From: Nautilia profundicola AmH
GTDB taxonomy: Bacteria; Campylobacterota; Campylobacteria; Campylobacterales; Nautiliaceae
NCBI RefSeq assembly: GCF_000021725.1
Contig: NC_012115.1
Location: 1,255,408 to 1,319,407, forward strand
Reading direction: 5' to 3'
Length of the DNA: 64,000 bases
A program made the translations under genes and the position numbers. Positions 53,569 through 64,000 of the stretch are shown here, piece after piece (the stretch's first letter is position 1; each line of letters opens with the position of its first letter). The notes beneath the pieces were generated by a model. It was given only the letters and a program-made list of their open reading frames with translations, was not told the DNA's origin and did no database searches.

Positions 53569-54906
53569 CTACATTGAAATTGTAGTGTTAAATACTTGAG
53601 TAGCTACGATACCGAAATAGATTGTTCCTATTAAGAGTATAAGTTGTCCTATTAAACTTCCACTTGAAATATTAATTTTTTTAATTGTTCCTTCTACAGG
53701 TTTATCAAAATAAATGTGTTTAACAATCCATGCATAGTAAGCCACTGCAAGCGCAGAGTTTAGTAATGCAACAAGTACTATCGGCCATAGACCCGCATCG
53801 ATACCTGCATAAAACGCTACCGCTTTTGATAAGAAACCTGCAAGCAATGGAATACCCGCAAGTGAAAACAGCTGAATTGTAAAGAACAGGGCATGCACAG
53901 GAGCTTTGTTTCCAAGTCCTTTAATGTCTTCAAGATATTTAACACCCGCTTCTCTTCTTAAATCGTTAAGAATCAAAAACACGCTTGTCTGCATGAAAAT
54001 GTAAGCAATTGCGTAATATAACACACCAGTATAAGAATAAACACTTGCAGCCGCTGCAAATGGAATTAATGCATAACCACTATGAGCGATTGACGAATAT
54101 GCCAAAATTTTAGAAATTCTTTTTTGCCATAATGCCATAAAGTTTGCCAGTGTCATTGTCAAAATTGCAAAGAAACTGAAAATAAGTACTGTTGATGTAG
54201 GATATGCGATTAAAAACTTATAAAACGCTTTAAATACCGCTACAAGCATCACACTTTTAATAACACCACTTAAAATTGCCGCAGCAGCGTGGTTTACTTG
54301 CGAATAAGCATCAGCAGCCCATGCGTGCATAGGAACTACAGTAAGTTTATAGAAAATACCAGCTAACATAATTGCAACAGCAATCAGAGTAAATTTACCG
54401 TGAACATTCATTTCAGCATAATTAAAACTATCAGTTACAAAACTAAACAGAGCAAAACCAAGTAAAATAATTCCACTCGCAACAGCACCTGCTATAAATG
54501 CTTTAATAGCACCTTCAGCATTATAGAAGTTTCTGATATTTGCAACTAAAACATAAGAAATAATAGCAATTACCTCAAATAAAACTATAAATAAAAAGAA
54601 GTTATTTGTTTCAAGTATCGCAATACTTGCACCTGCAACAAAAAGCATCTGTGCTATTAAAGGTCTCTCAAAACCTGTTAAAGACAGTGTTACCGCCGCT
54701 AATGTTGCAAGCAGTACATATTCCATTAACTGTGTAGAACTGTCCAAAACAAAAAACGGAAACACACTATTTAAACTCATACCGTTATACACTAATATTG
54801 CACTTGCTATAAATGCAGCAACTGCAATTAATTTTGCAATAAAAATATTGCTTTTATAAAATACCGGTACCAGTAATCCCGCCGCTATTAATACTATGAA
54901 ACTCAT
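53569..54906 (-). CDS. nuoN: NADH-quinone oxidoreductase subunit N
   Basis: An antiporter-like proton-pumping subunit of complex I, 445 residues with about 14 membrane helices. The Lys/Glu family residues are seen in KLTVVPMHAWAADAYSQ and in LAYSSIAHSGY. It shares one base with nuoM and is the last nuo gene. Confidence 0.94.
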   Translation of the reverse strand: MSFIVLIAAGLLVPVFYKSNIFIAKLIAVAAFIASAILVYNGMSLNSVFPFFVLDSSTQLMEYVLLATLAAVTLSLTGFERPLIAQMLFVAGASIAILETNNFFLFIVLFEVIAIISYVLVANIRNFYNAEGAIKAFIAGAVASGIILLGFALFSFVTDSFNYAEMNVHGKFTLIAVAIMLAGIFYKLTVVPMHAWAADAYSQVNHAAAAILSGVIKSVMLVAVFKAFYKFLIAYPTSTVLIFSFFAILTMTLANFMALWQKRISKILAYSSIAHSGYALIPFAAAASVYSYTGVLYYAIAYIFMQTSVFLILNDLRREAGVKYLEDIKGLGNKAPVHALFFTIQLFSLAGIPLLAGFLSKAVAFYAGIDAGLWPIVLVALLNSALAVAYYAWIVKHIYFDKPVEGTIKKINISSGSLIGQLILLIGTIYFGIVATQVFNTTISM

Positions 54907-56333
54907 TACATACCTCCAAGAAAGCTAAATGCTTTATTTGCTAAATCAAATATCGGCTGTGGTTGAATACCGAAATAAACAATCAATAGTGCAAAAATTG
55001 CCAATGCTGCTTTTTCAGGGAAACTCATTGTAAATTCAGCTTTTTGAACAATTGGTGACATTTCACCGTGAATTGATCTTCTAACTGCCCAGATAATATA
55101 TCCGGCACTGATAAGTGAAGCGATTGCGATTATTGCAATCCACCATCCGAATGACTTAATTGCTGATACGATAATTGTAAGCTCACCTACGAATCCCATT
55201 GTACCCGGAAGTCCAAGTGCAGCCATACCTGCAAGTATAAATATAGCACTTACGTAAGGAGCTTTTTTCATGATGCCGCCCATTTCGTCCATATACCATG
55301 TGTGTGTTTTATGATGTAACCATCCTGCAATTAAGAACAGTGGTGAAATAACAAGTGCGTGACCGATCATTTCATAAAGTGCCGCACTTAAACCGTCGTA
55401 TGTCATTGTTGCAATTGCTACAACAACAAGACCCATGTGTGAAATTGAGCTGTATGCAACCATTTTTTTGATGTGTCTTTCATATATAGCAAGCATACCT
55501 GCAAACAGTGTCGTATTAAGACCGATAATTAACATCCAGATTGAAAACTCTTGTGTAGTAATTGGCATTAGTTCTACTGTAAATCTGATTAACCCGTACG
55601 CACCCATTTTTAGAAGTACACCAGCAAGTAATACTGAAATACTGCTTGGTGCTTCAACGTGTGCGTCAGGAAGCCATGTATGGAATGGAAATGCTGGTAA
55701 TTTCGCCGCAAATCCGATAAACATAAACCACCAGATTAACGCAGGCGTTGCAAGAGCAGTTTCTCTAATTAATGTTAAATCCCAATATCCTGTCTGTTTA
55801 TATAATAAATAGAATCCAACAAACATAAACATACTTGCAACGTGTGTGTATAAGAAAAACTTAACCGCTGCATAAATTCTTCTCTCTCCACCCCAAAATC
55901 CAACTAAGAAAAACATTGGAACAAGAGTAAGCTCCCAAAACATAAAGAACCATAATACATTTGTAGTCATAAATACTCCGAAAATCGGACCACTAAATAA
56001 AACAAGCAAACTGAAATATGCAGCTTGATTTTTCTCTTCCCACGACGTAAATACAACTAAAATCAATAAAGCTGCCGTAAGCAGAAGCATTGCTACACTC
56101 AACGCATCCACTCTAAGTGTAAGCTCAAAACCAAACTGAGGAACGCTTAAAAAGCTTCCAAGTTCTAAAAACCCTTCCTGCGGAAGTGCGTTATACCAAC
56201 TAAATGCTATAAAAAATTGAACGATAAACCATCCAAGTGCAATATACTTTGCCAAGTCCTGATTGTTTCTTGTCAGAAAATATAAAAGAACCGACAAGAA
56301 AATCGGAGCGAATATTATATCAATAGCCACCAT
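54906..56333 (-). CDS. nuoM: NADH-quinone oxidoreductase subunit M
   Basis: An antiporter-like subunit, 475 residues, about 14 helices. Signature blocks are FFMFWELTLVPMFFLVG, AAKLPAFPFHTWLPDAHVEA, VAYSSISHMGLV and GLPGTMGFVGE. It abuts nuoL with no gap. Confidence 0.96.
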   Translation of the reverse strand: MVAIDIIFAPIFLSVLLYFLTRNNQDLAKYIALGWFIVQFFIAFSWYNALPQEGFLELGSFLSVPQFGFELTLRVDALSVAMLLLTAALLILVVFTSWEEKNQAAYFSLLVLFSGPIFGVFMTTNVLWFFMFWELTLVPMFFLVGFWGGERRIYAAVKFFLYTHVASMFMFVGFYLLYKQTGYWDLTLIRETALATPALIWWFMFIGFAAKLPAFPFHTWLPDAHVEAPSSISVLLAGVLLKMGAYGLIRFTVELMPITTQEFSIWMLIIGLNTTLFAGMLAIYERHIKKMVAYSSISHMGLVVVAIATMTYDGLSAALYEMIGHALVISPLFLIAGWLHHKTHTWYMDEMGGIMKKAPYVSAIFILAGMAALGLPGTMGFVGELTIIVSAIKSFGWWIAIIAIASLISAGYIIWAVRRSIHGEMSPIVQKAEFTMSFPEKAALAIFALLIVYFGIQPQPIFDLANKAFSFLGGM

Positions 56334-58187
56334 TTACAGCCCCTTTACAATTATTAAGATAGCAATAACGATTATTGCAACACCAATTACGAATTGACCC
56401 ATATAAGTGCCTATTTTACCGCTATGCCCAGCTCTAAATACTTTGTACACACCTTGTGTAGCAGGAACAGTAGCGTTTACAAGATAATCTATTACGTTCG
56501 TATCAAACCATCTTGCAGCTTTTGCGACAGCATTAACAACGATTGTTTTAGAAATCCAAGTAATCATTCTTTCAACATAGTAACCGTTGAATAAAATTTG
56601 ATGAATTGTTTGTACAAAATGATGTGATGCTATTTTATATAGTAAGTTAAGTCCTTTAACATATAGGCCAACAACAATTAAGAACAGTATCATCATTCCG
56701 GTAAGCATAAATGCCGCAAGCCCCGCAATATGAGGTTCAACTTCTTCTTTTCCGTTTAATATGAAATGAACTATATCAGCCTGCCAGATTGAGATGAACA
56801 ATGTAACAACAGCTAACACACCTAACGGTAATCTAATCCATAAATTACTTGGTGCGTGTACACTACCTGCAATATCTTCGTTTCTCGGCTCACCTAAGAA
56901 TATAAGAACCCATAATCTTGTAATATATGCTATTGACAATAATGCAGCAATAGTTACGAAAACTTTTGTAAACTCATTACCATTCGCCCAAGCAGCTGCA
57001 ACAACCGCTTCTTTTGAAAAATATCCACTAAACGGCGGAACACCAGCAAGAGATAATGAACCCATTGCCATAAATAACGCTACAAATGGAGCTGTTTTAA
57101 TAAGACCACCTAATTTCCAAGCATCTTTTGTATGGTGTGCTATATAGATAACAGCACCTGCACTTAAGAATAATAACGCTTTAAAGATTGCATGGTTTAC
57201 AAGGTGTAGCATACCAGCCGCAAGGCTTCCCACTCCAAGTCCTACAAAAGCAATTGATAAGTGTGACATAGTCGAATATGCCAAAATTTTCTTAATTTCT
57301 TTTTGAACCAGCGCACTACTCGCACCGATAAACGCTGAAAGTGCCGCAACGTTTGCAACTATAAATAAGGCATCAGTATATGCAAAGAAATCAAACAGTC
57401 TTGCTACGATATAAATACCTGAGTTAACCATTGTTGCACCATGGATTAACGCTGATACTGTTGTAGGACCTTCCATAGCATTCATTAACCATGGATATAA
57501 CGGGAATTGACCTGATTTACCGATCGCACCCATAAAAATAAATAATGCAACAACAAGAGCTACAGTTTTAGGCAACTCTCCCGCGTTTGCCATTTCATTC
57601 AATTCAACAAGATTTAGTGTACCAGTGTAATATACAAGTAATCCGATAGCAGCTAAAATAAAAATATCACCGAATCTTGTATATAAAAATGCCTGCATAC
57701 CTGCATCTGCTGCAGAATTTTTATAATACCAGAAACTAATCAATGCATATGATGCAAGTCCCATGAATTCCCAACCAACAAACGCACCGATTAAATCTTT
57801 TGTAATAACAAGTAAAATCATACCGCCGATAAAGAACAGTACTTTTGCGTAATATCTCGGCTGATCCGGATCGTCACCCATATAATCATGTGCAAAGTGA
57901 ATATCAGCAAATCCAAGTCCTGTCGCTATTAAAAGCATTACAATACTTAAATGGTCGATGTAAATACCAAACGGCAGTTTTAAATCACCGTACGCAATCC
58001 ATGTATAATCGATATTTATAGGCGTATCGCTGTAATTTAGAAAAATCACAATACTCGCCAAAAACAACATCGCTCCAACAATTTCAGCTACCCAAAACGC
58101 TAAATTTATTTTCATTTTCCCTAATACATACGCAAGCACCGCGCCTAAAAACGGTGCGCATAGTAATACTAATACTGCATTATTCAT
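56334..58187 (-). CDS. nuoL: NADH-quinone oxidoreductase subunit L
   Basis: The distal antiporter-like subunit, 617 residues. FVGWEFMGLASYALISFWY, KSGQFPLYPWLMNAMEGPTT, AYSTMSHLSIAF and GVPPFSGYFSKE are diagnostic. The final 100 residues contain the long lateral helix and a last membrane helix (GVAIIVIAILIIVKGL). The start overlaps nuoK by 8 bp. Confidence 0.96.
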   Translation of the reverse strand: MNNAVLVLLCAPFLGAVLAYVLGKMKINLAFWVAEIVGAMLFLASIVIFLNYSDTPINIDYTWIAYGDLKLPFGIYIDHLSIVMLLIATGLGFADIHFAHDYMGDDPDQPRYYAKVLFFIGGMILLVITKDLIGAFVGWEFMGLASYALISFWYYKNSAADAGMQAFLYTRFGDIFILAAIGLLVYYTGTLNLVELNEMANAGELPKTVALVVALFIFMGAIGKSGQFPLYPWLMNAMEGPTTVSALIHGATMVNSGIYIVARLFDFFAYTDALFIVANVAALSAFIGASSALVQKEIKKILAYSTMSHLSIAFVGLGVGSLAAGMLHLVNHAIFKALLFLSAGAVIYIAHHTKDAWKLGGLIKTAPFVALFMAMGSLSLAGVPPFSGYFSKEAVVAAAWANGNEFTKVFVTIAALLSIAYITRLWVLIFLGEPRNEDIAGSVHAPSNLWIRLPLGVLAVVTLFISIWQADIVHFILNGKEEVEPHIAGLAAFMLTGMMILFLIVVGLYVKGLNLLYKIASHHFVQTIHQILFNGYYVERMITWISKTIVVNAVAKAARWFDTNVIDYLVNATVPATQGVYKVFRAGHSGKIGTYMGQFVIGVAIIVIAILIIVKGL

Positions 58188-58488
58188 CGCTCACCGCCTT
58201 ATCTAATTTATCTGGGATTATTTCGCCCGTAATTCTATAACTTAACAAGAATATAAGAACACCCGCCGCTGCTTCCAGAGTAGCAATTACGATAATTACG
58301 TATGCTACAGCAAGTCCTCTTGTAAGTCCGAAGTGATATGCCGCACTCGCTAAAAACAGAATTACAGCATTCAATAAAATCTCAAGTGAAAAAAATATTT
58401 TTAAAAAGTCACTTTTACTTGTAACTCCGTATAATCCTACTCCGAAAAGTATTATTGCGAATATCGCATCAATGTAAAAACTAACCAT
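58180..58488 (-). CDS. nuoK: NADH-quinone oxidoreductase subunit K
   Basis: A 102-residue, three-helix membrane subunit (MrpC-like). The helix LGVYGVTSKSDFLKIFFSLEILL-type motif holds the conserved Glu, and the second Glu lies in VIIVIATLEAAAGV. It lies 2 bp after nuoJ. Confidence 0.94.
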   Translation of the reverse strand: MVSFYIDAIFAIILFGVGLYGVTSKSDFLKIFFSLEILLNAVILFLASAAYHFGLTRGLAVAYVIIVIATLEAAAGVLIFLLSYRITGEIIPDKLDKAVSDE

Positions 58489-58490
58489 CT

Positions 58491-58958
58491 TTATTCCTTT
58501 TCATGTTTTAGTGTATGCAGCATTCTGATACTTCCATAAAGAACACTTGCAGCCACAACACCCATAAATATTGCAATTTCTGCATAAAAATCTGTAAATA
58601 CTTTCACCTGATCTTTTAAAGGAATAACTTTACCTTCATACGGAATAGGAGGTAAAATAAACGGAATTATTAAAAGCCCGATAATAACAACAGTAACAAC
58701 GGCAACCGCCCAAGGTCTGATTTCGAATTTAGGGAATTTTGCCCCGATCACAGTAACACCGAAAAGTGTTAACACAACAATACCACCTGTATATACGAAA
58801 ATTTGGAACAACCCTAACAACTTCTCATCCATTAAAATATAATAAATCCCAAGTAAAAACATCATCATAACAAATGCCAATACTGCAGGAACAGTGTTTT
58901 TTTGCGTTAATGACATTACTGCCAAAATAACTGCCAATGCTAATATCAATACGCTCAT
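58491..58958 (-). CDS. nuoJ: NADH-quinone oxidoreductase subunit J
   Basis: A 155-residue membrane subunit with five helices. KLLGLFQIFVYTGGIVVLTLF is the conserved helix 3 with the pi-bulge that gates the Q-side water path. It overlaps nuoI by 4 bp. Confidence 0.93.
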   Translation of the reverse strand: MSVLILALAVILAVMSLTQKNTVPAVLAFVMMMFLLGIYYILMDEKLLGLFQIFVYTGGIVVLTLFGVTVIGAKFPKFEIRPWAVAVVTVVIIGLLIIPFILPPIPYEGKVIPLKDQVKVFTDFYAEIAIFMGVVAASVLYGSIRMLHTLKHEKE

Positions 58959-59539
58959 TGTGCATCTCCTTCGCCAGCTTCAGGTTTCTTTTCTGATTCG
59001 GCTTCTTTTGCTTCAGCATCTGCTTTAGCTTTTGCCTCAGCTTCCGCTTTCTTTTTAGCTTCTGCTTCTGCTTTTTTCTTTGCAAGCATTTCAGCCTTTT
59101 TTCTTGCTTTTTCTTCTTCTTCTTTTTTCTTCTGCTCTATCCACTCTTGTGGAACTTCCGGTTTAACCCAGTAATTTTTAATATCTTCGTCCGTTCCACC
59201 AGTGATCATTTCAAAAGTACCACCGCTAAGTTTGATAGCTTTTTCCGGTTTGGTAGGACACACATCTTCGCAAAGCCCACAGAAAATACAAATACCTAAA
59301 TTTACCTCAGGTAACGCCTTCGGTCTTTTAATAGGAAGCGGTTCCATTACAATGGCATCAACCGGACATATTTTCGCACAAGCTTCACACCCTGTACAAA
59401 TATCGTATTTTATTTCATGCATACCCCTAAAAATCGGTGAATGGTGCATAGTATCTTTTGTTACGTCTTTAGTAGCAATTCTCGGTTCAGTTAATGCTTT
59501 TGTAACCCTTACAATCTTTTCAATAATATTAAAAAACAT
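58955..59539 (-). CDS. nuoI: NADH-quinone oxidoreductase subunit I with long charged tail
   Basis: The 2x[4Fe-4S] ferredoxin subunit that hands electrons to NuoB. The cluster motifs CTGCEACAKICPVDAI and CIFCGLCEDVCPTKPEKAI are intact (residues about 48-100). The core ends near residue 135; then comes a tail of about 60 residues made almost only of Lys, Glu and Ala (AEAEAKKKAEAEAKAKADAE), predicted as one long helix. NuoI proteins usually end soon after the core. The tail's DNA is a low-complexity array in frame. The gene lies between nuoH and nuoJ as usual. Confidence 0.94.
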   Translation of the reverse strand: MFFNIIEKIVRVTKALTEPRIATKDVTKDTMHHSPIFRGMHEIKYDICTGCEACAKICPVDAIVMEPLPIKRPKALPEVNLGICIFCGLCEDVCPTKPEKAIKLSGGTFEMITGGTDEDIKNYWVKPEVPQEWIEQKKKEEEEKARKKAEMLAKKKAEAEAKKKAEAEAKAKADAEAKEAESEKKPEAGEGDAQ

Positions 59540-59540
59540 C

Positions 59541-60512
59541 TTAAGCTCCTAAAATATATATTTTTGCAAAAATTATCCAAACTAAGTTTAGAATTGCTAA
59601 AGGAGTCAACCAGCTCCAGCAGAATTTAAGCATCTGGTCAAGTCTTAATCTCGGGTTACTTGCCCTAATTGCAACCATTACTACCGCAAGAAGTGCTATT
59701 TTTAAAAACAGCCACCAGAAACTGTCAAAGAACAGCCCTCTGTATCCTCCGAAAAAGAGTACTACAGCCGCAGCTGATACAACTAACATTTCAGTAAATT
59801 CCGCAAATTTTAAAAGTACATAGTTTGTACCGGCATACTCTGTATAGAATCCGTAAACGATTTCTTGTTCCGCATCAGGGATATGAAACGGAGGTTGTTC
59901 AAGAATACCGAGCATTGCAATAATAAATATAACTGCACCCGGTAATAAAATCAATGTCGTAAGCCATGTGTTTTGTGATTGAATTTCATATAAATTCATT
60001 GTACCAAACAATAATGCCGGAGCTAACGCTGCAAGGAAAAACGGTGCTTCCATTGAAAGCATCTGTGCCAAAATTCTCATACCGCCAAGGAATGAATATT
60101 TATTGTTTGATCCAAACCCTGTTAGGAAAAGTAAAAAAGGTTCAACACCGATCAATACCACTAAACCTAATACACCGTATTGAGTGTCTAAAATTCCATG
60201 ACCGTTATTGATTAACGGCGTCCAAGGTATCAAGATTACCGGCAATGCCGCCACTAAAGGTGTAATAATCGGAATAATATTAAACAAATAAGGGTCAGCA
60301 CTTTTTGGAGTAATCGACTCTTTTGTTAAAAGTTTAAATACGTCAAATATCGTTTGTAGTGTACCTGCTGGACCGTTAAAATGAGGTCCAACCCTTTTAT
60401 GTATATAAGCTAATGTTTTTCTTGCAAAATAAAATACGAAAAATGTCCATGCAAGTAAAAACAGCAGACCCGGAAAAACCAAAATATAAAATAACATTGC
60501 TCCTACGCTCAT
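59541..60512 (-). CDS. nuoH: NADH-quinone oxidoreductase subunit H
   Basis: A 323-residue membrane subunit that forms most of the quinone tunnel. The first loop reads ARKTLAYIHKRVGPHFNGPAG, where most homologues have ERK, so the first Glu is Ala here. The second conserved loop is present (DAEQEIVYGFYTEYAGTNY) with its Glu cluster. Eight helices are seen. It follows nuoCD after only 9 bp, where nuoE, nuoF and nuoG (or nuoG alone) would lie in most relatives. Confidence 0.94.
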   Translation of the reverse strand: MSVGAMLFYILVFPGLLFLLAWTFFVFYFARKTLAYIHKRVGPHFNGPAGTLQTIFDVFKLLTKESITPKSADPYLFNIIPIITPLVAALPVILIPWTPLINNGHGILDTQYGVLGLVVLIGVEPFLLFLTGFGSNNKYSFLGGMRILAQMLSMEAPFFLAALAPALLFGTMNLYEIQSQNTWLTTLILLPGAVIFIIAMLGILEQPPFHIPDAEQEIVYGFYTEYAGTNYVLLKFAEFTEMLVVSAAAVVLFFGGYRGLFFDSFWWLFLKIALLAVVMVAIRASNPRLRLDQMLKFCWSWLTPLAILNLVWIIFAKIYILGA

Positions 60513-60521
60513 TTTCGCTCC

Positions 60522-62171
60522 TTATCTATCCAGGTCACCCTGACAGATATGCATACTTCCGTATAATAACGGAATATCTGAAAGGGTTTTACCTCTTAGT
60601 AATTTATCAAGCATCATAGTATGGTTAACACTCGGTGCTTTAATTTTTAATCTATATGGACTTGTTGATTTTTCCTGAGTAACAAGATGCATTAAAATCT
60701 CACCTCTCGCCCATTCGATTCTTGATACAGCTTCACCCGCCGGCATTCTTTTTGGCATTTTTACCAAATGATCTTTTTTAGGATCCATTTCACCGGCCTC
60801 TATACCTTCTTCTATTTTTGCCATAGCTTGTTTTATTAAATCCATAGCTTGTTCTAATTCTTTGAAAATAATATATAACCTATCTCTTGCATCACCGTTC
60901 TCACAAGTCGCATATTCCATTTCAAGTTTATCATATGCCGCATATGGTTCATCAATTCTTACATCTATTTTAGCACCGCTCGCCCTTGCGATAGGACCTG
61001 CAAGGTAATATTCCGCAACATCATCAAGAGTAAACACCCCGTTGCCTTTTGCCCTTGTATTCATTAACGGGTTTTTCATAAAGATATCAGTAATATCAGC
61101 TTTCGTGTCTTCAAATTTTTTAATGGCTTTATTGATACCTTCAAACCATGCCTTATAGTCATTAAGCGGATATCTGACTCCTCCAGGTTCGACACATGCT
61201 GTTGCAATTCTTGCTCCTGAATAATCTTCAAGTACATCCAAGAAGTATTCTCTAATATCAAGACACCACATCATAAATGTATGAAGCCCCATTGTTCCGA
61301 AGAAACCACCAAGTGAAATCAAGTGTGAAGCAATTCTTCCTGTTTCTCCGAGTATTACTCTCATATATTTAGCAAACTCAGTAATTTCTTTACCTGCAAT
61401 CTCCTCAACCGCCTGAGAGTAACAGATCATCGGGTTTGGATTATCCATAAAGCAGATTCTCTCAACTGCAACAATAGTACCGATAAAGTCTTTTCTTTCA
61501 GCCAAATGCTCAAGAGCCCTCCATACATATCCGATATCAGGCTCGATTTTTTCAATATTTTCTCCGTTTGTATAAACTTTAAGTCTAATAGGTCCGCTTG
61601 CAGGATGTGTAGGTCCCCAGTTAAGAACCGTTCTACTTCCTTCATGTCCTAACTTTTCTTCGTGTTCTTCGTATTCTTCAAAATACTCTTCAGTAATATC
61701 ATTGATATTTTGTATTAAATTTTCTTCATGTGCCTTCCAGTCAAAATCTTTTCTAAATGGAAACTTACCGTAATAATCACGGCTTATTAAGAAATATCTT
61801 AAATCAGGATGCCCTTTAAATTTAACTCCGAATGTTGAATATGCTTCAAGCTCATGCCAATTCGCACTTGGCATAAGTGGCGTAATTGAATCTATTTCAC
61901 AATTTTCAAGATCTCTTTCGATATCCACTTTAAGCCAAACATTTTTTTTACCGAACAAATCTTCTAAAAAATAGTTTACTTCAATTTTATTTTCATCAAT
62001 AAAATCCGTTGGACTCACTGTTGAGCAAGTTTTTACACCTGCTTGCTTTAAATCTTTTATAACATTTAATAAATCATCTTTATTTTTTAATTTGGCTTTC
62101 ACCCATGTAGATTTATAATCCTCTACATATTCCATATCATATTTGTTTAAAATATTTTTAATGTTTTCCAT
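60522..62171 (-). CDS. nuoCD: Fused NuoC-NuoD subunit with hydrogenase-like features
   Basis: A 549-residue fusion. Residues 1-150 are NuoC-like (FGVKFKGHPDLR near 114-125); residues 180-549 are the NuoD/hydrogenase large subunit fold. NWGPTHPASGPIRLKV (185-199) has the first His of the usual HPAAHG loop but not the second. Where NuoD normally has DRLDYVSM, this protein has ERICFMDN (237-244), with Cys at 240 and Phe at the Tyr place. PGGVRYPL, AGPIARASGA and EWARGEIL resemble [NiFe]-hydrogenase group 4 blocks, and the C-terminus is SMHICQGDLDR with one Cys (542). It still lacks two full CxxC pairs, so it is unlikely to bind NiFe. Electron donor unknown. Confidence 0.92.
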   Translation of the reverse strand: MENIKNILNKYDMEYVEDYKSTWVKAKLKNKDDLLNVIKDLKQAGVKTCSTVSPTDFIDENKIEVNYFLEDLFGKKNVWLKVDIERDLENCEIDSITPLMPSANWHELEAYSTFGVKFKGHPDLRYFLISRDYYGKFPFRKDFDWKAHEENLIQNINDITEEYFEEYEEHEEKLGHEGSRTVLNWGPTHPASGPIRLKVYTNGENIEKIEPDIGYVWRALEHLAERKDFIGTIVAVERICFMDNPNPMICYSQAVEEIAGKEITEFAKYMRVILGETGRIASHLISLGGFFGTMGLHTFMMWCLDIREYFLDVLEDYSGARIATACVEPGGVRYPLNDYKAWFEGINKAIKKFEDTKADITDIFMKNPLMNTRAKGNGVFTLDDVAEYYLAGPIARASGAKIDVRIDEPYAAYDKLEMEYATCENGDARDRLYIIFKELEQAMDLIKQAMAKIEEGIEAGEMDPKKDHLVKMPKRMPAGEAVSRIEWARGEILMHLVTQEKSTSPYRLKIKAPSVNHTMMLDKLLRGKTLSDIPLLYGSMHICQGDLDR

Positions 62172-62180
62172 GAGAGCCCT

Positions 62181-62654
62181 TTAAAATTTCATTTGTTTCC
62201 AGAGGCCACCTTGGCTTGATGCACTCGGCTCGCCTCTTTTAATTTTTTCTTTAAGTTCTTCAAGTCCGGCGATAATCGCTTCCGGTCTTGGAGGACATCC
62301 TGCTACGAAAACGTCTGCAGGAAGAATCTCTGTCATATTTTTAATAACAGATACGGAATCATTATAAGGTCCTCCATCATATGCACACGCACCGATTGCA
62401 ACAACGTATCTCGGTTCTGGCATTTGTTCGTATGTTCTTAGAAGAGCCGGAAGTATTTTTTTACTCACAAGTCCAGTAATAAACATAATATCTGCTTGTC
62501 TTGGAGTAGGAGTCATAATATATCCGTATCTCTCCCAGTCATATCTCGGCCCCATAGCCGCAAGCATTTCTAATGAACAGCATCCACTACAGAAGTGGAC
62601 AATCCAAGGAGATTTACTCCTTGCGTAATTAAAAAAATCAAGCACTTTTAGCAT
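62181..62654 (-). CDS. nuoB: NADH-quinone oxidoreductase subunit B
   Basis: A 157-residue subunit that carries cluster N2, the last before the quinone. Ligands lie in FCSGCCSLEMLAAMGPRYD, in GACAYDGGPY and in AGCPPRPEAI. It lies 9 bp before nuoCD and its start overlaps nuoA by 17 bp. Confidence 0.96.
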   Translation of the reverse strand: MLKVLDFFNYARSKSPWIVHFCSGCCSLEMLAAMGPRYDWERYGYIMTPTPRQADIMFITGLVSKKILPALLRTYEQMPEPRYVVAIGACAYDGGPYNDSVSVIKNMTEILPADVFVAGCPPRPEAIIAGLEELKEKIKRGEPSASSQGGLWKQMKF

Positions 62655-62976
62655 TTCTATACTCCTTCATACTAATCGTAATAGCTGCGAATAATAATAT
62701 TCCGAATACCATTGCCCAATTTAAGGCATCCGTAGAATCAGCAAATACAAACAGACTAAAAAACAGACCTGCCATATCAAATACAATAAATGCTATCGCA
62801 AATATAAAGTATCCGAAATTCGCTTTCATCGGAACTTCACTACTTGGAGGCAATCCACACTCAAAGTGGTCATTTTTAATCTCACTTGGATTTAGTGGTG
62901 CAACCGCTATACCTAATAAATATAATAGTATTACACCTAACAGCGTTCCCGCCGCAAAGAATAAAATTGTTCCCAT
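62638..62976 (-). CDS. nuoA: NADH-quinone oxidoreductase subunit A
   Basis: A 112-residue, three-helix subunit. The loop NDHFECGLPPSSEVPMKANFGYF is conserved with its Cys. It opens the operon, with the RBS AAAAGGAG and a TATAAT upstream. Confidence 0.95.
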   Translation of the reverse strand: MGTILFFAAGTLLGVILLYLLGIAVAPLNPSEIKNDHFECGLPPSSEVPMKANFGYFIFAIAFIVFDMAGLFFSLFVFADSTDALNWAMVFGILLFAAITISMKEYRNAKSA

Positions 62977-63135: not shown

Positions 63136-64000
63136 TCACACTTTAATAAAACCCAACTCCTTTTCACTATCAAATGCACTACCTTTTTCTTTTTTTATTT
63201 CTTCAATAAAATCTTCAGTTTTAAAAACAGGTTTTTTTCTCATTGCTACTTTATATGCCGTATTTTTAATTATTACTTCGATTTGAGCACCGGTAAGCTC
63301 AAAACTACTAAGTTTGTTTATATCAAATCCTTCTTCATACTGAGCAGACTTAGGGAGTTTTAATTTCCACAGTTTTTTTCTTTCTTTGAAAGTCGGTTTT
63401 TCAAAAAGTATTTTATACTCAAATCTTCTTGAAAACGCACTGTCTATTGTTTCAAGCAAATTAGTCGTTGCTATTAAAAGACCGTCAAATTTTTCGAGTT
63501 GTTCAAGAAAAATATTCTGCATTTGGTTATGCATTTTATCTGCACTGCTAAATGCCGCGGTTGTTCTGCTGCTCAAAAACTGGTCAGCTTCGTTCAAAAG
63601 CAAAATAGGCTTGGTTTTCAGTTTTTCACAAATTGAATAATATTCATCAAACAATCTTCTTACGTTTTTCTCACTTTCTCCAACATACATAGAAAGTATT
63701 TTACTTGAGTCTAAACTCAAAAGAGGTTTGTCAAGTTCTTTTGCTATGGAGTGTGCTGTTAATGTTTTTCCCGTACCCGGAGGACCATAAAAAATGATTT
63801 TAGCCTCTATATCACTGCCTTCTTTTATTCCCCATTCTTTAAGGAGCTTAAGAACCCTTTTATCAATCTGTTTTAAAAGTGTATTAATCATCTCTTTTGT
63901 TTTTGAGGGTAAAATAACCTCATCCAATCCTTTTTTAGGTTCGATAAAGTCAAATATCGATTCTCTTACAATATGTTCTATTTTGTGTTTTTTCTTTGGA
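63136..64000 (-). CDS. AAA-family ATPase (partial, open at the right edge)
   Basis: The frame runs from the stop at 63136 to the window end without a stop, so the start lies outside; a TTG at 63927 has the residues PKKG before it in the same frame and is not needed as a start. The visible 288 residues have the AAA core: Walker A FYGPPGTGKT, Walker B ILLLNEADQF, with Asn in place of the usual second Asp, sensor 1 IATTN and the Arg finger region SAFSRRFEYKI. The C-terminal lid helix set follows. This is the SpoVK/FtsH-like group of AAA proteins, without a visible protease domain. Substrate unknown. Confidence 0.82.
   Translation of the reverse strand, partial: PKKKHKIEHIVRESIFDFIEPKKGLDEVILPSKTKEMINTLLKQIDKRVLKLLKEWGIKEGSDIEAKIIFYGPPGTGKTLTAHSIAKELDKPLLSLDSSKILSMYVGESEKNVRRLFDEYYSICEKLKTKPILLLNEADQFLSSRTTAAFSSADKMHNQMQNIFLEQLEKFDGLLIATTNLLETIDSAFSRRFEYKILFEKPTFKERKKLWKLKLPKSAQYEEGFDINKLSSFELTGAQIEVIIKNTAYKVAMRKKPVFKTEDFIEEIKKEKGSAFDSEKELGFIKV

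Follow-up and report, generated by a model that had tools for sequence, protein, structure and literature searches.

The fused NuoCD protein encoded by Nautilia profundicola AmH is neither a hydrogenase subunit nor part of a canonical quinone reductase, and it represents a new variant within the complex I family. We consider it highly probable that this protein is part of ion-pumping complexes of 11 subunits that form a family of their own within the complex I superfamily, one that split off early. The orthologue group of this NuoCD, together with the 11-subunit complexes that contain it, is referred to below as X. The window analyzed here comprises 64,000 nucleotides (bases 1,255,408-1,319,407) of the closed 1,676,444-bp genome of this bacterium, and all positions given for N. 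profundicola are those of the window.

The nuoCD gene lies within a minus-strand operon, nuoA-B-CD-H-I-J-K-L-M-N (53569-62976), which encodes the complete set of 11 subunits, ABCDHIJKLMN (Table 1). The protein matches PRK06075 with 313 bits, yet it scores under every NCBIfam NuoD (equivalog) cut-off. A pseudogene or a sequencing error was considered and dropped, since NuoCD is full-length and conserved and the operon is intact. The Lys/Glu pump residues are preserved in NuoL, NuoM, NuoN and NuoK, as expected of the membrane arm of complex I. In the published account of the genome, nuoK was listed as missing (PMC2628731); contrary to that listing, the gene is present, with both conserved Glu residues. 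None of nuoEFG was found in the nuo operon, and PF01512 (NuoF) is absent from the whole genome, which excludes the entry of NADH by the usual way; the two [4Fe-4S] motifs of NuoI fit an input from ferredoxin, and X is probably ferredoxin-linked. The C-terminal tail of NuoI (58955-59130, KKKAEAEAKKKAEAEAKAKADAEAKE...) is rich in Lys, Glu and Ala and is perhaps a ferredoxin docking element; it varies in length across the clade (157-208 aa among the members measured). Upstream of nuoA there is an AAA ATPase-like reading frame (63136-63999), cut by the end of the window.

Table 1. Genes and sites of the N. profundicola nuo operon (positions in the window), and the flavoprotein genes located in or beside X operons of other genomes (positions in the respective loci)
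Feature	Position	Strand	Remarks
NuoA	62638..62976	-	
NuoB	62181..62654	-	157 aa, N2-cluster subunit
NuoB C22-S-G-C25-C26	62577..62591	-	tandem Cys of complex I, with an extra Cys at the MbsJ Cys25 position
NuoCD fusion	60522..62171	-	549 aa; NuoC ~1-150, NuoD ~180-549
NuoCD H189-P-A-S192	61596..61607	-	beta1-beta2 loop shorter by one residue; no second His (His38/His59)
NuoCD E237-RICFMDN-244	61440..61463	-	Cys240 and Phe241 replace Asp-Tyr of DRLDY (Tyr87 in T. thermophilus, Tyr108 in bovine numbering)
NuoCD Cys250	61422..61424	-	not conserved
NuoCD T293	61293..61295	-	occupies the site of the conserved pocket Asp (bovine Asp160)
NuoCD Cys543	60543..60545	-	SMHICQGDLDR end; first Cys of DPCxxC kept, second replaced by Asp
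NuoH	59541..60512	-	matches Nqo8 (158 bits) better than MbsM (61) or MbhM (53)
NuoI	58955..59539	-	two [4Fe-4S] motifs; Lys/Glu/Ala-rich C-terminal tail
NuoJ	58491..58958	-	
NuoK	58180..58488	-	102 aa; equivalents of Glu36 and Glu72 kept
NuoL	56334..58187	-	pump residues kept
NuoM	54906..56333	-	pump residues kept
NuoN	53569..54906	-	pump residues kept
Flavoprotein, six loci	L054:18481-19854; L098:18572-19901; L065:1036-2400; L069:7833-9197; L081:1238-2608; L082:3726-5090		CoA-disulfide-reductase-like

The conservation of the pocket was followed over 58 distinct NuoCD orthologues, 57 of which cover the pocket region and 52 the C-terminal Cys. Where aligned canonical NuoD proteins read DR(L/M)DY(V/I), with Asp, Asn or Glu preceding the Tyr, X has ERICFMDN at residues 237-244, which confirms the earlier note in that Phe stands for the quinone-site Tyr and Cys for the Asp before it; Cys240, Phe241 and M242-D243-N244 are each found in all 57 orthologues. 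The second His of the HPxxHG loop of NuoD is indeed missing, as had been noticed, and the loop reads HPAS-GP, one residue shorter, throughout the 57 (HPNS-GP in one of them). A C-terminal Cys had been reported as well, and it is present six residues from the end in 52/52 orthologues, although its number is 543 and not 542 (H541-I542-C543). By contrast, Cys250, previously counted as a part of this signature, can be given no weight, because its position is occupied by Cys in only 26 of the 57 proteins, and by Gly in 26, Ala in 4 and Ser in 1. Two features come in addition to those named before. The pocket Asp, which in complex I pairs with the His, is gone, its position being occupied by Thr, Asn or Ala within the clade, and NuoB carries an extra invariant Cys. 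All 50 distinct NuoB orthologues carry the N2 motif FC(S/T)GCCSLEM, which begins with LC in a single one; within it, C25-C26 correspond to the complex I pair and C22 is the additional residue. Since the substitutions are invariant in homologues down to 56-61% identity, chance or sequencing error is excluded as their source. An AlphaFold model of NuoCD alone had a sound overall fold (pTM 0.83), its pocket loops (214-242, 478-513 and 543-549) having pLDDT values below 50, and in a read-through fusion of NuoB and NuoCD the pocket was not assembled (mean pLDDT 59). Foldseek placed E. coli NuoCD, HycE and Aquifex NuoCD on top with similar E-values, and thus did not discriminate between them. A NuoCD encoded on a haloarchaeal plasmid (L096:2842-4485) has Trp at the position of the quinone-site Tyr (DRWDW), with no further recognizable nuo gene in the 7.5 kb that were read.

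X was found only in Campylobacterota, i.e., in all tested genomes of Nautiliaceae and in certain members of four further families within the same order. In the profile search, full or near-full copies scored at least 788 bits and the next matches at most 265 bits, while copies split between contigs scored lower. A pattern scan of the named collection added metagenome-assembled genomes of Sulfurimonas, Sulfurovum, Sulfuricurvum and Nitratifractor, and no other phylum; one of the two patterns used, CFMDN[PI]N, contains the trait itself, which biases this set towards it, but the trait-independent profile search shows the same pocket residues and a clean score gap. In the examined genomes of Nautiliaceae and of the family designated f13, X is the sole complex I-type NuoD, whereas families f4, f6 and f23 include genomes with a canonical NuoD beside it. 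Wherever the flanks of a clade locus suffice, the ABCDHIJKLMN operon is complete, one split copy excepted, and NuoF is absent from 12 of 14 other X genomes. In one X operon, about 5.8 kb (L073:13625-19450) separates nuoJ from nuoK-L, which are contiguous in the others. A search of the open literature returned no paper describing X as distinct, which is weak evidence, as most subscription papers lay outside that search.

The phylogenetic position of X was analyzed with a NuoD-domain tree of 46 proteins (LG+C20, 362 columns), in which the reference sequences came from PDB alignments, E. coli and plasmid records, a set that does not extend to Fpo/Fqo or to most archaea; a viral collection searched for outgroups yielded nothing useful. 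X forms a clade (support 100/100), the split of X, MbsL and Nuo from hydrogenases and Ehr is well supported (100/99), and Nuo without X or MbsL is a clade of its own (96/96). The NuoCD of N. profundicola thus falls outside the sampled NuoD proteins and is not nested inside them, which answers the check that had been proposed. The approximately unbiased (AU) test accepts a union of X with Mbs (p 0.476) and of X with Nuo (p 0.503) equally. When the trait columns were removed, MbsL joined Nuo and X remained outside; with MbsL also left out, Nuo without X received 100/97. Trees of NuoB (86/95) and NuoH (94/91) likewise separate X, as one clade, from a clade of Nuo. Taken together, the trees make an early split of X, outside the sampled NuoD, likely though provisional, given a long stem branch (1.17) and limited outgroups.

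As to function, ferredoxin would donate electrons to NuoI in an enzyme lacking the NADH module, and the electrons would travel by way of two [4Fe-4S] clusters to N2 in NuoB, after which the acceptor would react in the chamber between NuoB, NuoD and NuoH, and this chemistry would drive, reversibly, the intact NuoH-A-J-K-N-M-L pump. The chamber is not a canonical quinone site, since the His, Tyr and Asp are gone, nor is it a hydrogen site, since neither the catalytic Glu nor the second Cys of either CxxC motif is present. We infer that the likeliest acceptor is sulfane sulfur (polysulfide or persulfide); in the reverse direction, sulfide would be the donor and would yield reduced ferredoxin for CO2 fixation.

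What slightly favors sulfane sulfur is that the three quinone residues are lost, that the pocket matches MbsL, that the hosts cycle sulfur (the named ones, Nautiliaceae, Sulfurimonas, Sulfurovum and Sulfuricurvum, are all sulfur-metabolizing lineages) and that a flavoprotein is encoded in or beside the nuo operon in six loci outside Nautiliales. The gene of this flavoprotein follows nuoN in two of the six loci and precedes nuoA in the remaining four, in three of which it overlaps nuoA by 4 nt. The protein belongs to the CoADR family (among solved structures it matches CoA disulfide reductase 5l1n best, with 165 bits) and has a Cys at the VPCAIPY position. In a 100-genome sample, a homologue at 44% or more was present in 5/5 X genomes outside Nautiliaceae and f13, as compared with 9/72 genomes without X, a difference confounded by kinship. 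Several observations argue against a sulfur acceptor. NuoB keeps the tandem Cys, so that its cluster could be fully ligated and lack an open iron of the MBS type; NuoH is far nearer to complex I than to MbsM, and NuoA is present; in Nautiliaceae the flavoprotein does not adjoin the nuo operon, Nautilia having just a 34% homologue elsewhere. Moreover, a C85A/C385A mutant of MBS is still active, its catalysis being ascribed to the proximal cluster with three Cys ligands (PMC7684303), and Nautilia possesses a periplasmic Psr as well (PMC2628731, PMC10092268). The whole statement, i.e., an early-splitting 11-subunit pump that is ferredoxin-linked and has sulfane sulfur as its acceptor, is accordingly offered as a tentative reading with rather less than an even chance of being right. 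A bolder version, which we regard as rather unlikely, would make X a living early branch of complex I that split off before the quinone site was fixed, a pump with a sulfane-sulfur chamber that in sulfide-rich habitats runs backwards, from sulfide or persulfide to ferredoxin for the reductive TCA cycle, and bypasses menaquinone.

Almost as likely as sulfur, and hence also a possible reading, is that X is a ferredoxin:menaquinone oxidoreductase, a functional complex I whose quinone pocket has been remodeled. In this case menaquinone would bind at the same end of the chamber, protonated by Cys240, Cys543, Asp243 or water, and autotrophic growth may reverse the flow, from menaquinol to ferredoxin. 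Such an enzyme is consistent with the tandem Cys of NuoB and with a membrane arm that is complete and of the complex I kind, including NuoA and a NuoH resembling Nqo8; besides, X is the sole complex I-type enzyme in Nautiliaceae, the respiratory modules of which were proposed to use the quinone pool (PMC2628731), and the canonical Nuo of Campylobacterota takes electrons from ferredoxin or flavodoxin and reduces menaquinone (PMC6682613). However, the three conserved residues of the quinone site are missing from every member of X, the Tyr being invariably replaced by Phe, NuoH deviates from the ERR and RxPFD motifs, and the presence of a canonical Nuo beside X in f4, f6 and f23 makes a duplication of function unlikely. 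A small acceptor of another kind that reacts at or through the site, for instance a thiol disulfide, a heterodisulfide or a flavoprotein subunit linked to NAD(P), seems unlikely; the CoA-disulfide-reductase-like flavoprotein of the six operons speaks for it, and its lack of linkage to the operon in Nautiliaceae against it.

Two further explanations concern the nature of the protein itself. The substitutions might be neutral, and X an ordinary NuoD that drifted inside one bacterial order and serves an unremarkable enzyme. The length of the stem could exaggerate the depth of the split, the outgroup sample is limited, and joining X to the 11-subunit NuoCD of Bacteroidota is not rejected at 0.05 (p 0.079). 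Such drift is nevertheless improbable, given that the substitutions are invariant over five families while the remainder of the protein diverged to 56%, that Nuo without X is a clade in the NuoD, NuoB and NuoH trees, that a union of X with the CD fusions of Campylobacterota is marginally rejected (p 0.047), and that the protein stays under all NuoD equivalog cut-offs. The earlier note had instead seen a hydrogenase-like site and a form between NuoD and a hydrogenase large subunit, and a metal site would mean that Ni or some other metal is bound by C240 and C543, perhaps together with C250 and C22 of NuoB, and that H2 is made or used. The observation behind it holds, since both conserved Cys align with the first Cys of the group 4 motifs RICGxC and DPCxxC, and so does the intermediate position insofar as two Cys are retained and the tree places X outside the sampled NuoD. 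The site itself does not stand: both second Cys are replaced, C250 is not conserved (and was dropped as a ligand for that reason), the Glu of the EP motif is absent, and the protein lies firmly on the Nuo/Mbs side of the tree, far from hydrogenases. In addition, one genome (G049) has X as its one PF00346 protein, so that X is not there the partner of a group 4 hydrogenase. A metal site of this kind is therefore very improbable. The nearest pocket is that of MbsL, from a sulfane-sulfur reductase (6u8y), and thus no undescribed intermediate.

The descent of complex I from enzymes resembling [NiFe] hydrogenases is commonly reconstructed from a small number of forms (MBH, MBS, Fpo and Nuo). X adds a bacterial one that has the full complex I arm, half of the hydrogenase Cys set and no quinone residues; it thus separates two normally joint events, the gain of the complex I arm and that of the quinone site. 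The energy metabolism of Nautiliaceae has so far been depicted with a partial Nuo of the ordinary kind (PMC2628731). In the genomes of this family that were examined, the metabolism rests on X as the sole complex I-type enzyme, the candidate acceptor of which may be other than an ordinary quinone, and the existence of cultured strains makes the question of the acceptor directly testable.

Among known systems, canonical complex I (NuoD/Nqo4/49-kDa; 4hea, 7p61, 7q5y) shares with X the fold, the operon order, the tandem Cys of NuoB, the pump residues and NuoH, and differs in that X lacks His38, Tyr87, the pocket Asp and NuoEFG and lies outside the sampled NuoD clade. The 11-subunit Nuo of Bacteroides and Prevotella has, as X does, a CD fusion beside NuoA, B, H and I, but it keeps HP(A/S)THG and the Tyr and is not the sister of X in the best tree. 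Compared with group 4 [NiFe] hydrogenases (MbhL 6cfw, HycE 7z0s, CooH/Ech types), X keeps the first Cys of each CxxC pair and lacks the second, as well as the Glu of the EP motif (MbhL Glu21; Gly/Pro in X). In hydrogenases, the two retained Cys are the terminal Ni ligands and the lost ones bridge Ni and Fe; with the bridging pair gone, a NiFe cofactor is in practice excluded. The Ehr-like PF00346 proteins (of Rhizobium, Burkholderia and Nautilia) are related to hydrogenases and have no NiFe site; none of the four Cys ligands is present in them, and in the tree they group with HycE/HyfG types. The Nautilia representative (L037:8338-9702; G000:C1 near 674,500-675,600, outside the window) is the fourth PF00346 protein of the genome; it reads RISGNES and DLSYAGNDL at the ligand sites and groups with the Ehr type. 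The closest likeness is to MBS of Pyrococcus furiosus (6u8y), and to our knowledge a pocket of the X type is otherwise known only from this archaeal sulfur-reducing enzyme. MbsL keeps Cys85 and Cys385, as X keeps Cys240 and Cys543, it also lacks His38, Tyr87 and the pocket Asp, and its loop is likewise one residue short. That MbsL keeps two of the four hydrogenase Cys and has no quinone His and Tyr was described previously (PMC7684303). NuoB of X aligns without gaps to MbsJ, C22, C25, C90 and C120 corresponding to C25, C28, C93 and C123. The differences are that the membrane arm of MBS is of the Mrp type and its proximal cluster is held by three Cys, whereas X has an arm of the NuoA-N type, fused CD, an Nqo8-like NuoH and, in NuoB, the four Cys of MbsJ plus one more. 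Thus, the acceptor end of X looks MBS-like and the remainder looks like complex I.
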